A stretch of 64,000 bases of DNA. Origin: Dokdonella sp. Lineage in GTDB: Bacteria; Pseudomonadota; Gammaproteobacteria; Xanthomonadales; Rhodanobacteraceae. The notes beneath the pieces are model-generated. The model had not been told where the DNA came from, searched no databases, and was given only the letters and a program-made list of their open reading frames with translations. This document shows positions 20,492 to 26,230 of this stretch, piece after piece; position 1 is the first letter of the stretch, and the number at the start of each line of letters is the position of its first letter. The DNA lies in NCBI RefSeq assembly GCF_019634845.1, contig NZ_JAHCAQ010000008.1:98058-162057 (forward strand). The letters are read 5' to 3'. Both the position numbers and the translations under genes were made by a program.

Positions 20492-21799
20492 TCAGTCGAG
20501 CAGGGTCGGCGCGCGCGCGCCGCTCAGCGCCACGCAGCGCTCGATCGCGGCGAAATCGTCCAGCCCGCACCAGAACACGCGCCAGCGCGGCAGGCGCAGG
20601 CAGCCGTCGCTCTGGTCGTGGTAGAAGGCATTGATCGCATTGCCGTGGCGCGAGCGCCAGAACAGGCGCGGGGTTTCCTCGCGCATGACCTGCCACACGG
20701 CACGCCCGAGGCCCTCGCCCTGCGCCTCGTCGAGCACGGCGAACTTGTCCAGATACACGTAGCCCGAATCCTCGACGAGGATCACGGCGGCGCGATAGTT
20801 CTCGCTCACGTAGGCCCGCAACAGGCGCGTGCGCTCGAAGTAGTCGGGCACCAGCCGGCGGCCGAACGCCGACTCGATGAGCTCGCGCAGACGGCCGCAG
20901 TCGACCTCGTCCCAGGACGACACGCGCCGCACGCGCTCGCCGCGTCGTACCAGCGTGCCCGAACCCTTGTGCGTGAACAGTTCCTTGGCCAGCTCGGCCG
21001 GGCGCGTGATCGACACCGACGACGACGGCGGCAGGCCATCGAGCAGGTCCTTGATCTGCTCGAGCTTGACCCGCATGCCGCCGGCCAGCCAAGGCTGCGC
21101 CAGCAGGTGCTCGTATTCGCTCGACAGGTTGATCGAGTCGATGATCTTGCCGCGTTCGTCGAGCAGGCCGCCGGTGCCGGTCAGGAACACGATCTTGTAG
21201 GGTTGCAGCACCTGCACCAGCTCGTTGGCGGCGAAGTCGGCGTTGACGTTGACGATCTGTCCCTCGCGCGTCTCGGCCAGCGAGGCGATCACCGGGATCG
21301 AGCCGACCTTGATCGCGGCTTGGATGCCGTCGGTGTCCACGCGCACGACCTTGCCGACCAGGCCATAGAGGTCGCGGTCGAGGAACTCGGCCTCGAACAC
21401 GCCCGACTGGATCGCGGTGGCGCGCACGCCCTGCGCCTGCAGCGCCTCGACCAGCTTGAGGTTTTCCTCGCGCATGACCTGGCGCACGATCGCGAGCACG
21501 GCGGCGTCGGTGACGCGCAGGTTGTCGACGGTGCGCTTCTCGATGCCGGCCGCCTGCATGCGCTCGTCGAGTTGCGGACCGGCGCCGTGCACGACGATCG
21601 GCGTGAGCCCGACCTGCTGCAGGAACGCGAGCGAGGACACCAGCGCCTCGAGCTCGTCGCGCAGCACGGCACCGCCGACCTTGACCACGGCGAAGCGCGC
21701 CGCATCGAGCTGCGAAAAGCGCTTGAGATATTGCTGGATCTCCTTGGTGCTGGCCATGTTGGACAGCAGCCGCAGGATCGTCAGGCGCAGGTCGGTCAT
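20492..21799 (-). CDS. argB: Bifunctional N-acetylglutamate kinase / synthase (ArgB-ArgA fusion)
   Basis: A 435-residue fusion. The N-terminal amino-acid kinase domain (about residues 30-290) has [35 protein letters not shown] and [14 protein letters not shown]. The C-terminal GNAT acetyltransferase domain (about 300-435) has [19 protein letters not shown] and [17 protein letters not shown]. This arrangement matches the NAGS/K known from Xanthomonas: it makes N-acetylglutamate and phosphorylates it, and is the usual site of arginine feedback. No separate argA or argB is seen in the window. The start at 21799 (MTDLRL) is preferred over an in-frame option at 21883. Confidence 0.94.
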
Positions 21800-21898
21800 G
21801 GTCAGCGCCCGCTCAGCAGCCGGCAGCCGGAAGCGACCCCCGATCGTCGCGGCCGACGGCGAGGGCGTGGTCGAGTGCGGCAAGTGCAGATGCGGTGT

Positions 21899-22996
21899 TC
21901 ACGGCGTGATCTCCAGCAGACGGTGGTAGGTGTGGACGGCGCGATCGAGTTGTTCCAGTGCGACCCATTCGTCGGCGCTGTGCGCCTGCGCGATGTTGCC
22001 CGGGCCGTAGACCAGGGCGGTGCAGCCTGCCTGCGAGAACAGCGCGGCCTCGGTCCAGAAATCGACCGCCGGGCCGATCGGCAGTTGCCATTGCATGGCC
22101 AGTCGCTGAGCGGCAAGGCGACGCGCCTCGGCATGGGCCGGATCGCCGGCCGGCAAGGGCGCGCCGCGGAAGGTCTCGCTGAACTCGACGGGCGCGACGT
22201 CGGCGCAGGCGCGCAGCGCCGCCAGCACGTCGTCGTGGGCCATCGATGGCAGCGGGCGGAAGCCGCAGCGCAGTTCCGCCGTCGGCGCGATCACGTTGGC
22301 CTTGATGCCGCCCTCGATGCGGCCGATGTTGAAACGCAGGCCGCGCAGGCCACCGAACGCCTCACCCGCCAGGCTCGCGACGTGATCGAGCGCGCGCGCG
22401 CCCCAGCGCACGGCCTGGTGCAGCGCGCTGTCGGCGGCCTGCTGCTCGCCCGAGGCATGGCCGGCACGACCGGCAAAGCGCAGCAGCAGCGAGCCGATGC
22501 CGCGATGCGCCAGCACGGCCTCGCCGCGCGTCGGTTCGGCGACGACGACCGCGTCGAATCGGCACGGCTCGCGCAGGAAGGCCGCGATGCAGCGCGCGTC
22601 ATTGGCTTCCTCGTCGCTCGTGAACAGGAACGCCGCGTCACCGTTGCTTGCCTGTGCGGCAGCCAGCAGCGCGGCGGCCGCACCCTTGATGTCGCAGGCA
22701 CCGAGCCCGACCGCACGCTCGCCGTCGACGCGCAGGGCAAATGGGCTGGCACTCCAGTGCGGCGAATCGGGCACCGTGTCGAGGTGCACGTTGAACAGGA
22801 TGCGCGGCTGCCCGCGCCGCGCCAGCAGGCTCACCGCACCCGCCCCGTGGTCGCGCAGGTCGAGGTCGAAGCCGCCCAGCTCCGCGCGCAGGTAGTCGAA
22901 GATGCCGCCGGTGTCGATCGCGCGCGGTGGATTGCGCGTGTCGAAACCGACCAGTGCGCGCAGATGCCTGATGGTGGCGGTGAGCAGGTCGTTCAC
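21899..22996 (-). CDS. N-acetyl-L-citrulline deacetylase (ArgE')
   Basis: A 365-residue M20-family metallo-deacylase. Zinc/cobalt ligand motifs are [29 protein letters not shown] and AEPT, with a late [15 protein letters not shown] containing the last ligand His. Beside acetylornithine carbamoyltransferase and argG, its substrate should be acetylcitrulline rather than acetylornithine (context plus family knowledge from Xanthomonas). The GTG start at 22996 overlaps the argG stop as GTGA, a clear coupling signal. Confidence 0.93.
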
Positions 22997-24246
22997 TGGG
23001 CCGCGTCCGCGTTGACCTGCGCCCACAGCGTCGAACTCATGCCGTAGAGCTTGATGAAGCCCTCGGCCTCGGCCACGCCCCAATCGGCCGATTGCGCGTA
23101 GGTGGCACCCTTGGCGTTGAGAATGTGGGGCGAGCTGACCGCCACCGCGCCGATGCTGCCGCCGTGCGTTTCGAGCACGACTTCGCCGCTGACGCAGCGC
23201 TGGCTCGCAGCGAGGAACGCTTCGAGGTCGGTCTTGAGTGGATCGTGGAAGAAGCCCTCGTAGACGAGTTCGACCCACTTGCGTGCGACCTCGGGCTTGA
23301 AGCGGTTCTGTTGTTTGGTCAGCACCGCTTCTTCGAGCGCCCGATGCGCGGCCAAAAGGGCCGCCAGGCCGGGCGCCTCGAAGATGATGCGTCCCTTGAG
23401 GCCGATCGTGGTGTCGCCGGTATAGATGCCGCGCCCGACGCCATAGGCCGCCAGCAGTTGGTTGAGTCGTGCCAGCAGGGCCGGACCCGCCAGCGCAACG
23501 CCGTCGAGCGCAACGGCCTCGCCGTGGACGAAGCCGATGCGCAGCCGCAGCGGCGTTGCCGGCCACTGGCTGCGCGGCTGGCACCAGCCACGCGCGCCCT
23601 CGCCCGGCGCTTCCCAGCGATCGATTTCGCCGCCCGACATGGTCAGGCCAAGCAGGTTCTCGTTGATCGTGTAGGCCTTCTGGCGGGCCTGCACCGCGAA
23701 GCCACGCTGCTCGAGGTACTGCTGCTCGTAGGCGCGCGTGTGGGTGTGTTCCTTCTGGATCTCGCGGATCGGCGCCACGATCGCGTAATCGCCGCGCGCC
23801 TTGACCGCGAGGTCGAAGCGCACCTGGTCGTTGCCCATGCCGGTGCAACCATGCGCGATCGCGCCTGTGCCGAGTTCGGCGGCACGTGCCAGCGCCGCGT
23901 CGACGATGAGGTAGCGATCCGACACCAGCAGCGGATACTGACCCTGGTAGGCCTCGCCGGCCCACACGAACGGCTTGACGAAGTGCTGCCACAGCGCCGG
24001 GCCGCCATCGACCGTCCGGTGCGAGGCCACGCCGAGCTCCTGCGCACGCGCCTCGATGGCGGCGCGCTCCTGCGCATCGACGCCGCCGGTGTCGGCGAAC
24101 ACCGTGTGCACGGCCCAGCCGCGCTCCTGCAGGTAGGGCACGCAGAAACTCGTGTCGAGCCCGCCGCTGAAGGCGAGCACGATGGGCTTGCGTGCGTCAT
24201 TGGCGCTTGCTGAGTGTTGCTGCGGAACCGCGGCAGGATGCGACAT
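22993..24246 (-). CDS. argG: Argininosuccinate synthase ArgG
   Basis: A 417-residue ATP-dependent ligase joining citrulline and aspartate. The N-type ATP pyrophosphatase loop AFSGGLDTS is at about residues 24-32, followed by [19 protein letters not shown]. It matches the family in length. I chose the ATG at 24246 (MSHPAAVP) over an in-frame TTG at 24303 on composition; no strong Shine-Dalgarno precedes it. It sits between argF' (57-base gap) and argE' (overlap). Confidence 0.96.
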
Positions 24247-24294
24247 GGGAGGGCTCGTATGGGGAAACGGGTTGCGTGGGAGACTGCTGTTGCA

Positions 24295-24315
24295 AATCAC
24301 CAATCACGAATCACG
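24295..24315. repeat. Tandem AATCAC repeats at the argF'-argG junction
   Basis: Three near-identical 7-base units, AATCACC, AATCACG and AATCACG, run head to tail across the argF' stop codon into the spacer before argG. On the coding strand they read as GTGATT units. Short repeats of this look are, as I remember, common in intergenic DNA of Xanthomonadaceae. Confidence 0.6.
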
Positions 24316-25323
24316 GCCTTCCACCAGCCGCGCCATCACGGCCTTCTGCACATGCAGGCGGTTTTCGGCTTCGTCGATCGCGATGCACGCGGGCGAATCC
24401 ATCACGGCATCGGTGGCCTTGACGTTGCGCCGCAGCGGCAGGCAGTGACTGAACACGGCATGGTCGGTGAGCGCCATCTTGGCCTCGTCGACGATGAAGT
24501 GGCGATGCGCATCGCGGATCGGTTTTTCATCGGCCCAGCGACCAAAATACGGCAACGCGCCCCAGCTCTTGGCGTAGACCACGTGTGCACCGCGATAGGC
24601 CTCCTGCGGATCGTGGCTGAGCGTGAGCGAACCACCGTTCTCGGCCACGTTGCGCCGCGCGAACTCCATGTAGCGCGCATCGAGCAGGTAGTCGCGGTTC
24701 GGGCACAGCAGGGTCACGTCCATGCCGAAGCGGGTGGCGATCTGCAGCGCCGAGTTGGCCACCGCCGTATTGAGCGGCTTGGGGTGATAGGTCCAGGTCA
24801 GCACGTACTTCCTGCCACGCAGGTCGGCGCAACCAAAATGCTGCTGCAGCGCCAGGATGTGGGCCAGCTCCTGCATCGGGTGCGTGATCGTTTCCATGTT
24901 GATGACCGGCACGCTGGCATGGCGCGCGAAGGCGTGGATCACGCGATCCTCGCGATCCACAGTCCAGTCCTGGAACTTCGGGAACGCGCGCACGGCGATG
25001 AGGTCGACATAGCGCGACAGCACGCGCGCGACTTCGGCCACGTGTTCCTCGGCCTCGCCGTCCATGACCGTGCCGGACTCGAACTCGATCGGCCAGGCAT
25101 CCTTGCCGGGCTGCAGCACGATCGCGTGGCCGCCAAGCTGGAACGCGCCCAGCTCGAAGCTCGTGCGCGTGCGCATCGACGGATTGAAGAACAGCAGCGC
25201 GATCGACTTGCCGGCCAGCGCGGTGCCGCTGCGATGGCGCTTGAACTGCGCGGCCTGCGCCAGCAGTGCGTCGAGCTCGGGGCGGGACCAGTCCTGAGTG
25301 GAAAGGAAATGTCGCATCGTCAT
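24304..25323 (-). CDS. N-acetylornithine carbamoyltransferase (ArgF')
   Basis: A 339-residue transcarbamylase using acetylornithine and carbamoyl phosphate. The carbamoyl-phosphate motif is SMRTRTS (about 49-55) and HPMQELAHILAL (148-159) replaces the OTCase HPxQ region. DAWPIEFESG and MDGEAEEH supply the acetyl-group pocket. Glu92 and Lys302 (in RRNVKATD) fall exactly at the positions I recall for the specificity glutamate and carboxylated lysine of the X. campestris enzyme. This makes the acetylcitrulline pathway call firm. Start at 25323, with AGG 6 bases upstream. It is first in the arg operon. Confidence 0.96.
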   Translation of the reverse strand: MTMRHFLSTQDWSRPELDALLAQAAQFKRHRSGTALAGKSIALLFFNPSMRTRTSFELGAFQLGGHAIVLQPGKDAWPIEFESGTVMDGEAEEHVAEVARVLSRYVDLIAVRAFPKFQDWTVDREDRVIHAFARHASVPVINMETITHPMQELAHILALQQHFGCADLRGRKYVLTWTYHPKPLNTAVANSALQIATRFGMDVTLLCPNRDYLLDARYMEFARRNVAENGGSLTLSHDPQEAYRGAHVVYAKSWGALPYFGRWADEKPIRDAHRHFIVDEAKMALTDHAVFSHCLPLRRNVKATDAVMDSPACIAIDEAENRLHVQKAVMARLVEGRDS

Positions 25324-25440
25324 CGTGACCTGCCGTTGGTTGAAGACTCCGGCCACGGATGGCCGCCTGGTTCCTGGCGCGGAACGCGCCGCGCGCACGC
25401 ATTCATCGACTCGAAATCTCGTCCCGGCCCGAGCAGAAAC

Positions 25441-25468
25441 AAAAAACCCGGCACGGGGGCCGGGTTTT
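25441..25468 (-). terminator. Terminator hairpin in the arg operon leader
   Basis: A 10-base-pair stem, AAAACCCGGC pairing with GCCGGGTTTT, with a 6-base loop. On the minus strand six T residues follow. It lies 118 bases before the argF' start and about 230 bases beyond the stop of the glycine-zipper gene. The sequence TGCCGGGTA at 25501-25509, overlapping the end of the leader ORF, repeats the downstream arm and could pair with the upstream arm (ACCCGGC) as an antiterminator. Confidence 0.85.
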
Positions 25469-25499
25469 CGCTCCAATCGATACAGCAACGCGCGATCGG

Positions 25500-25604
25500 C
25501 TACCCGGCAGGATGGCTCGGTTCCGGTCGGCGCGCGCGCGAGGTCATGCCAGCCGCCATGCGGGCGCTGGTCAGGTTCTGCGGTTGGACGGCCAGAAGGC
25601 TCAT
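25500..25604 (-). CDS. Candidate arginine leader peptide, 34 residues
   Basis: A minus-strand ORF from ATG at 25604 to TAG at 25500. It begins MSLLAVQPQNLTSARMAAGM and continues TSRARRPEPSHPAG, with three of four consecutive codons (CGC GCG CGC CGA) encoding Arg about 20 bases before the candidate antiterminator arm. In-frame GTG codons at 25616 and 25622 could extend it by 4 or 6 residues. No good Shine-Dalgarno is visible, the main weakness. The non-repetitive first half would suit a nascent-chain sensor rather than plain codon counting. Position and structure, not homology, support the call. Confidence 0.45.
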   Translation of the reverse strand: MSLLAVQPQNLTSARMAAGMTSRARRPEPSHPAG

Positions 25605-25640
25605 GCGGATCTGCACATTCACGCGTTGTTCGAGGGCGCC

Positions 25641-25669
25641 ACCTTAGCGGCTAACCTGTTGCGGTGCAA
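25641..25669 (-). promoter_or_regulatory. Probable sigma-70 promoter of the arg operon
   Basis: On the minus strand TTGCAC (25664-25669) and TAAGGT (25641-25646) are 17 bases apart. Transcription would start near 25634, about 30 bases before the leader ORF and upstream of the terminator hairpin, which is what an attenuator needs. Confidence 0.5.
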
Positions 25670-25696: not shown

Positions 25697-26230
25697 TCAT
25701 TCGGCCGGCTCGATGCTCACTCGCACGCGCAGGCGGTCACCGGGGTCGTAGCCCAGGCGCGACATGAACACGTCGCCGCGATAGCGGTACTGCACGTCGT
25801 AGGCGACGATGCGATGCTCGGCCGGGCCCGCTTCCATGCGACAGCGCCGCTCGACGCCTTCGTAGTAGCCATCACTGCCGCGCGCCATGTTGTTGCCGAT
25901 CGCGCCTCCGGCGACCGCGCCGGCCACCGTTGCCGCACGGCGCCCATCGCCCTTGCCGACCGTGCTGCCGAGCACGCCGCCGACGATCGCACCGATCACG
26001 GTGCCGGCCGCGCGATTGCTGCCCGTGTCGCCCGGATAGGCCACCGGCACGTCGTCGCAGACCTCGCGCGCCGGGGCGCGCACATGGTCGTACACCGGAT
26101 CGACGCGCAGGACGTCGGCCCAGACCACCTTGGAGTTGCTCGTTCCATCGTCCGCGTAGCCCCGCTCCTGCGCCGCTGCCATCTGGGTCCCCGCCAGCAG
26201 CAGCAATGTCACCCAAAAAACTGCCTTCAT
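25697..26230 (-). CDS. Exported glycine-zipper protein
   Basis: A 177-residue protein with a signal peptide (about residues 1-21, [20 protein letters not shown]) and no lipobox. Two glycine-zipper stretches lie at about residues 75-110: [17 protein letters not shown] and [17 protein letters not shown]. The C-terminal domain ends in a basic/beta segment, [19 protein letters not shown]. This is the '17 kDa surface antigen / glycine zipper 2TM' class of envelope proteins of unclear function. GGAGG precedes the ATG by 6 bases. A paralogue lies at 48829-49305. Confidence 0.85.

Follow-up and report, generated by a model that had tools for sequence, protein, structure and literature searches.

How is arginine synthesis controlled in this Dokdonella genome, and what part is played by the short open reading frame (ORF) ahead of its arginine genes? 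The window, by which we mean the whole 64-kb stretch of DNA that was analysed, carries a cluster started by argF', whose product, N-acetylornithine carbamoyltransferase, uses N-acetylornithine in its reaction. The cluster also holds argG, acetylornithine deacetylase and acetylglutamate kinase, and an argH-like gene scoring just below its model's cut-off. Three genes are listed here.

24304..25323, minus strand: argF', N-acetylornithine carbamoyltransferase, the gene that the leader precedes (NF003384, E 1.6e-180; ATG at 25323, family search query taken from 25326)
22993..24213, minus strand: argG, argininosuccinate synthase (NF003385, E 6.4e-208, match to the piece 23092-24213; start provisional, open frame 22993-24303)
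20492..21883, minus strand: acetylglutamate kinase (argB type), further down the cluster (NF003386, E 7.6e-228)

The usual repressor for such a cluster, ArgR, passed its cut-off in none of the 55 genomes that have the enzyme and in 2 of the 6 that lack it (61 genomes; related genomes are counted here as independent, as are related sequences in the codon tests below). One genome with the enzyme, G004, gave an ArgR match below the cut-off. ArgR and N-acetylornithine carbamoyltransferase seem to be mutually exclusive in the order, G047 and G056 (f12) being examples.

The initial annotation had proposed an arginine-sensing attenuator ahead of argF', and all of its elements were found in place on the minus strand. 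In order of transcription they are as follows, with a predicted inner stem-loop added.

25641..25669, minus strand: promoter-like site TTGCAC-17-TAAGGT (read from the sequence; similar arrangement in relatives)
25500..25604, minus strand: leader ORF, 34 codons plus TAG, with the core ARMAAGMTSRARR (ORF reading, relatives, profile match)
25527..25538, minus strand: R-A-R-R codons CGC GCG CGC CGA, proposed stall site (sequence, codon conservation)
25502..25508, minus strand: antiterminator element GCCGGGT, running into the leader's stop codon (comparative)
25473..25499, minus strand: stem-loop inside the antiterminator hairpin, CCGATCG pairing with CGATTGG (from the predicted fold of the segment left by a stalled ribosome)
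25441..25469, minus strand: intrinsic terminator (sequence and terminator scan)

The 34-codon ORF with its R-A-R-R, the terminator with six U and then argF' could all be read as described. The ORF translates to MSLLAVQPQNLTSARMAAGMTSRARRPEPSHPAG*; read from the GTG at 25622 instead, it would have 40 codons. The terminator, GAAAACCCGGC-CCCCGT-GCCGGGTTTTT at 25469-25442, has 11 pairs counting G-U, and its upstream arm ACCCGGC (25465-25459) is common to the antiterminator; a terminator scan returned two terminator-like sites, one nested in the other, where shuffled sequences would lead one to expect 0.2. The promoter claim, with its 17-base spacer, comes with caveats. The hexamers TTGCAC (25669-25664) and TAAGGT (25646-25641) are present 17 bases apart, but each matches the consensus at 3 of 6 positions and a strict consensus scan of the window found no promoter at threshold. 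The site is believable only because a similar one is kept at the matching place in relatives, as TTGC..-17-(TAANGT, CATGAT or GAGCAT). The single-sequence fold of the window's leader was no better than shuffles (z -0.68 and -1.35), and an Rfam search of the 64-kb window gave 0 matches at the gathering threshold, T-box included. With an ordinary fold and a promoter that fails the strict scan, the window alone proves little; the evidence is comparative. A second hairpin, CGGCC-ATCCGT-GGCCGG (25349-25365, minus strand), lies just 5' of argF' and could have an effect on its translation; similar CCGGCCATCC..GGCCGG hairpins occur near argF' in L026, L022 and L130.

Is the small ORF conserved? The annotation had named its absence from relatives, or that of its Arg codons, as grounds for refutation. 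At 30 + 80 = 110 loci from two overlapping genome sets (own locus in the 30), the 700 bases ahead of argF' were searched for the core ARMAAGMTSRARR, with a match at 10 or more of its 13 residues required. The leader ORF is kept in 109 of 110 loci, with R-A-R-R all but invariant, and in the only miss, L096, the contig gives just 93 bases upstream. These loci yielded 94 unique leaders, own included, called f1/f2 by tree position. Eight residues never vary among them (A0, A3, G5, M6, S8, R9, A10 and R12), and T7 and R11 show one variant each; we refer to such leaders as frozen. The distance from leader stop to argF' is 497 bases in L051, 399 in L061 and 72-257 in other f1/f2 loci.

A profile of the leader matched its own genome at one place (E 1.8e-16). 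Among 369 genomes from the class, strong matches were found in 5, all f1/f2 and at one place each; those in G332, G447 and at a second place in G057 (E about 1e-3) look like chance. Plasmid records gave one match, in a 508-kb Xanthomonas sacchari 'plasmid' record (L239, NZ_CP010410.1 75666-80725) that holds argF', argG and the leader and is perhaps a misfiled piece of chromosome. In this record, the one annotated record looked at, the leader is without annotation. A search of solved structures with the leader gave no match.

The core is constrained as a peptide. In-lineage attenuator controls failed: a His leader model matched 0 of 61 genomes at cut-off, regions upstream of hisG held a His-rich ORF in 1 of 30, not leader-like, and a Thr leader model matched 0 of 40 genomes at cut-off, its weak matches being probably terminators. 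Unfrozen Arg leaders, the leader flanks and argF' were therefore used as controls. The pN/pS ratio is 0.035 over AAGMTSRAR, and 1.11 and 0.94 in the leader flanks, the latter over codons 14-18. Over 500 random pairs, the core has pN 0.017 and pS 0.451, versus pN 0.125 and pS 0.468 for argF'; that is, amino-acid change in the core is one seventh of that in argF' at an about equal synonymous rate, which places the constraint on the peptide. Four codons are used at each of G5, T7 and A4 (Ala in 80). Conservation of the RNA only is ruled out by a core pS like that of argF' combined with a low pN. Where the enzymes are 70-75% identical, the frozen cores share 83% of their residues (159 sampled pairs) and the unfrozen windows, even at their best offset, 33% (43 pairs). 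Judged by these substitution patterns, the comparison shows selection acting on the peptide in families f1-f4, beyond codon sensing.

The same data bear on the plainest explanation of the locus, a terminator of the upstream gene next to a chance ORF. That gene does end at 25697 on the same strand as the leader, but the ORF, the spacing, the antiterminator and the promoter are all conserved, and the pN/pS contrast of core and argF' rules out a chance ORF; this explanation is largely refuted and we give it next to no weight. Selection on the peptide would likewise be expected if the released peptide acted in trans and the attenuator only set its amount, and a leader peptide acting in trans has been described, peTrpL of Sinorhizobium (PMC7298713). 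However, selection here extends neither past the Arg/Pro codons nor into the N-terminal third, the pattern to be expected of a tunnel segment, and neither Pfam nor NCBIfam assigned the leader peptide to a family, so that a trans-acting peptide appears very improbable.

Codon choice points to tRNA charging. The codons of R9, R11 and R12 are CGC, CGT or CGA in 280 of 281 cases in frozen leaders versus 84.7% in argF', and the same holds for 136 of 146 regulatory Arg codons of unfrozen leaders. R12 is CGA in 89 of 94 leaders against a CGA background of 1.2%, S8 is TCG in 93 of 94, and P13 is CCG in all 88 leaders with Pro; these fixed codons are a second layer of constraint. CGA is read by inosine wobble of tRNA-Arg(ACG). 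The own genome (about 90% complete) has one tRNA-Arg gene each for ACG, TCT, CCT and CCG and none found for TCG, one weak tRNA match lacking an anticodon; CGA should thus depend on tRNA-Arg(ACG), which would be the tRNA that the leader senses. Its sole gene found lies in a tRNA cluster at 96.6-97.9 kb of contig C26, just outside the start of the window. The Ala inside the Arg run is invariant (94/94), while some relatives have Arg there. This is telling, since a codon counter should gain from Arg at that place.

How would a waiting ribosome be converted into transcription of argF'? A terminator lies within 110 bases after the leader stop in all 94 unique leaders. The element and the terminator arm occur as three paired classes, GCCGGGT/ACCCGGC, GCTGGGT/ACCCAGC and GCCAGGT/ACCTGGC, the third with two exact cases, both f9. 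By exact heptamers in 174 sequences, 105 have the element of their own class, 7 that of another class only and 45 neither; 4 terminators are unclassed, and in 13 sequences the script found no terminator, of which 3 (L157, L161, L173) have one visible by eye. The claimed competition of antiterminator and terminator is borne out in that the two vary together, albeit through few events: on the enzyme tree (133 rows) 85 bear both traits and 80 agree, with only 4-5 independent changes, too few for an independent-pairs sign test on class agreement to reach significance. Three f9 leaders of the form VVVRRRRP..MELFG* (L180, L186, L189) have no recognisable antiterminator match and a terminator of class ACCCGGC.

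RNAalifold, given 78 of the 94 unique sequences, predicted the six antiterminator pairs and no others. One pair is CG in 59 and UA in 16 sequences, and 99.3% of cells are paired, a flattering figure, since 16 of 94 sequences were left out before counting: 13 for an imperfect or shifted element (L013, L038, L048, L051, L054, L058, L059, L060, L063, L082, L085, L098, L105), L088 and L109 for length, and L081 as near-identical to L077. In 500 shuffles of the alignment, which ignore relatedness, the paired cells, double-change cells and covariation score were never reached; the number of covarying pairs and the number of pair types were within the shuffled range.

The geometry suits a switch operated by a ribosome. 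In 79 of 93 leaders the distance from the last Arg codon to the start of the element is 18 nt, by a pattern that admits imperfect elements and leaves L051 without a match. A ribosome with a codon in its A site covers about 11 bases further, so that at the last Arg codon it would leave the element free; at the stop codon it would cover it. In L019 and L062 the leader ends early and the element is kept outside its reading frame. In predicted folds, the segment left by a stalled ribosome makes at least 5 pairs with the first arm of the terminator in 94 of 94 leaders, and in all 94 the segment beyond the leader stop folds into the terminator. Folding alone discriminates poorly, as shuffled spacers, too, pair with that arm at 5 or more positions in 59% of trials. 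Over the full stalled segment the terminator is favoured thermodynamically in 76 of 94, and the switch must therefore be kinetic. A pairing of CGCGCG in the Arg codons with CGCGCG past the stop had also been suggested. This protector is seen in the predicted fold of the window but is not general: with no ribosome, the antiterminator is predicted in 80 of 94 leaders. Most species seem to be without a trp-type protector, which is not a feature of every attenuator, and their untranslated leaders should read through.

That the RNA beyond a ribosome at the stop folds into the terminator in every leader would also suit a different mechanism, in which the nascent peptide at high arginine stalls the ribosome at the stop codon, masks the antiterminator and turns the operon off. 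TnaC and the fungal arginine attenuator peptide are examples of arrest at termination, and the conserved peptide would be accounted for. Arrest peptides keep the residues near the peptidyl centre, however, and here variation is free in the stretch that separates the Arg/Pro codons from the stop (codons 14-18, the flank at 0.94 above). The early ends of the L019 and L062 leaders and the resemblance of other families to codon sensors also speak against arrest at the stop, which we consider unlikely.

The missing Shine-Dalgarno sequence, named at the outset as the weak point, is real and shared: of 93 leaders, 85 contain none of the words sought, and that of the window is among them. In the 47 leaders of f3-f5 and f7-f11 that were scored, a -10-like hexamer is found 20 times with its end 6-7 bases ahead of the ATG, and no more than 4 times at any other offset. 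In 86 f1/f2 leaders the -10-like peaks fall 8-10, 24-27 and 36-38 bases before the ATG, and f9, the group used for rooting the tree, mostly has about 25 bases. The window has its -10-like element 36 bases before the ATG, whereas many relatives have it at 6-10. As read from these distances, leaderless-type spacing is widespread among relatives and not in the window.

Where did the frozen peptide come from? It was found in 10 of 10 f1-f4 loci of one set and 12 of 13 f1, f2 and f4 loci of another, the exception, L134, being truncated. Families f5 and f7-f11 have other short ORFs with Arg runs (for example RRRR or RRLRRP) in similar geometry and with unrelated peptides, such as MMNAHAAISIRTNPRRRRVSQSTAG and MMNRPANKDIRRLRRPRTGNRAG. 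Arg-run leaders were counted in 8 of 10 f5-f11 loci by eye, 17 of 27 by script and 16 of 20 new loci, the last count including the doubtful L181 and all 9 fetched f9 loci. They probably represent the ancestral attenuator, and ArgR was not detected in the genomes that have them. By count, the tree shows two changes of the frozen state, the second being an artefact, as L051 and L061 carry the core beyond the 420 bases used. A single origin of the frozen peptide fits; f6 and f7 are not separated from f3 on the tree. In the f6 genome and several f10 genomes no leader was found. The f10 cases L137-L144, L185, L188 and L127 have the enzyme, no leader found and mostly no terminator found; by eye, L127 and L188 have a GGEEF-like coding stretch upstream of argF'.

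The family comparison also weighs on a feed-forward scheme in which a pathway intermediate, for instance N-acetylornithine, arrests the ribosome at RARR and turns the operon on. The enzyme of the first gene uses this compound, the peptide is frozen, a stall at RARR would leave the antiterminator free, and the idea of ornithine sensing by SpeFL offers a model. Yet other families with the enzyme have unfrozen Arg-run leaders, and the codon choice points to tRNA charging. We regard the scheme as quite unlikely, less so than a trans-acting peptide and more so than arrest at the stop.

Taken together, we propose that the arginine operon is controlled by a ribosome-mediated transcription attenuator, with the nascent peptide probably assisting in f1-f4, a reading based on sequence comparison to which we give a probability of roughly 0.8. 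The attenuator itself is well supported by the conserved ORF, its R-A-R-R and the class agreement of antiterminator and terminator, in line with the annotation's reading of arginine attenuation. RNA polymerase would make the leader and a ribosome would start the small ORF without a Shine-Dalgarno sequence. With charged tRNA-Arg(ACG) in short supply, the ribosome would wait on RARR, worst at CGA as the codon choice suggests. Its footprint would end before GCCGGGT, which could then pair with ACCCGGC, a pairing supported by covariation; the terminator could not form and argF' would be transcribed. With arginine plentiful, the ribosome would reach the stop and cover GCCGGGT, and the terminator would form.

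In f1-f4, the peptide around MTSRAR would occupy the upper part of the exit tunnel while the ribosome waits, and probably make the stall stronger or more specific. The peptide-level selection adds support to the nascent-chain branch of the original proposal, arrest being putative; that the chain strengthens the stall or its specificity has about even odds. A bolder version, in which an Arg-codon attenuator has turned arrest peptide, is tentative and falls somewhat short of that. The Arg run would have become R-A-R-R behind an invariant (A/S)GMTS, with arrest at the accommodation of Arg-tRNA(ACG) on CGA and release reporting arginine. If true, the leader would be a missing link from codon-counting attenuators to nascent-chain sensors, in an order where ArgR is mostly not found. 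The unfrozen Arg-run and frozen leaders of one operon would form a natural before-and-after series from codon sensor to nascent-chain sensor, and the device is a likely arginine regulator for a whole order of bacteria, that of Xanthomonas and Lysobacter, with plant pathogens and soil bacteria among its members and ArgR not detected.

How does this leader compare with known systems? The classical proteobacterial attenuators are those of trp, his, leu, thr, ilv and phe. The leader resembles them in its short ORF with codons of the pathway, its terminator with a competing antiterminator and the pathway operon that follows. It differs in the arginine pathway, in usually lacking a Shine-Dalgarno sequence, often with leaderless-type spacing in relatives, in a protector hairpin that is not general, and in a peptide frozen in f1-f4, which codon sensing does not need. 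In the arrest peptides R-A-G-[P] and R-A-P-[P], the bracketed residue is assigned to the A site. With R12 in the A site, R-A-R-[R] would line up with both, a comparison of motifs and a lead only. The invariant R-A followed by two residues resembles the motif of the RAPP/RAGP arrest peptides SecM and ApdA, of which those described in PMC10987492 serve protein export, whereas this leader precedes an arginine operon. It also has no Pro at the proposed A site, and the A-site residue would here be the sensed amino acid.

The leader orf34/SpeFL ahead of Salmonella speF, according to PMC6386406, has a similar ORF length, a conserved core and consecutive Arg codons that sense arginine, and low arginine favours expression. 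Unlike the present leader, it controls a polyamine gene by way of Rho and RNase G (PMC6386406). The SpeFL core HIRRT..HIMM (DUF2618) was not found in the leaders here, with no DUF2618 match in 21 leaders searched against Pfam. For the Salmonella leader, the substitution of frequent for rare Arg codons is described as having no effect, and that of Lys for Arg as having one (PMC6386406); given that indifference to codon rarity, the CGA fixed here may set the two leaders further apart. Arginine T-boxes (PMC1262725) are likewise a form of RNA-level control by arginine supply, but the sensor here is a translated ORF, and the window gave no T-box match. Among the matches listed in a literature search, taken by title and start of abstract with most subscription papers outside its scope, there was no report of the leader, and in the main text of PMC2965389 neither arginine nor argF was found. 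The kind of attenuator is known; what is new is the pathway, the start without a Shine-Dalgarno sequence, the occurrence in genomes where ArgR is not detected and, most of all, a peptide that has stayed frozen.
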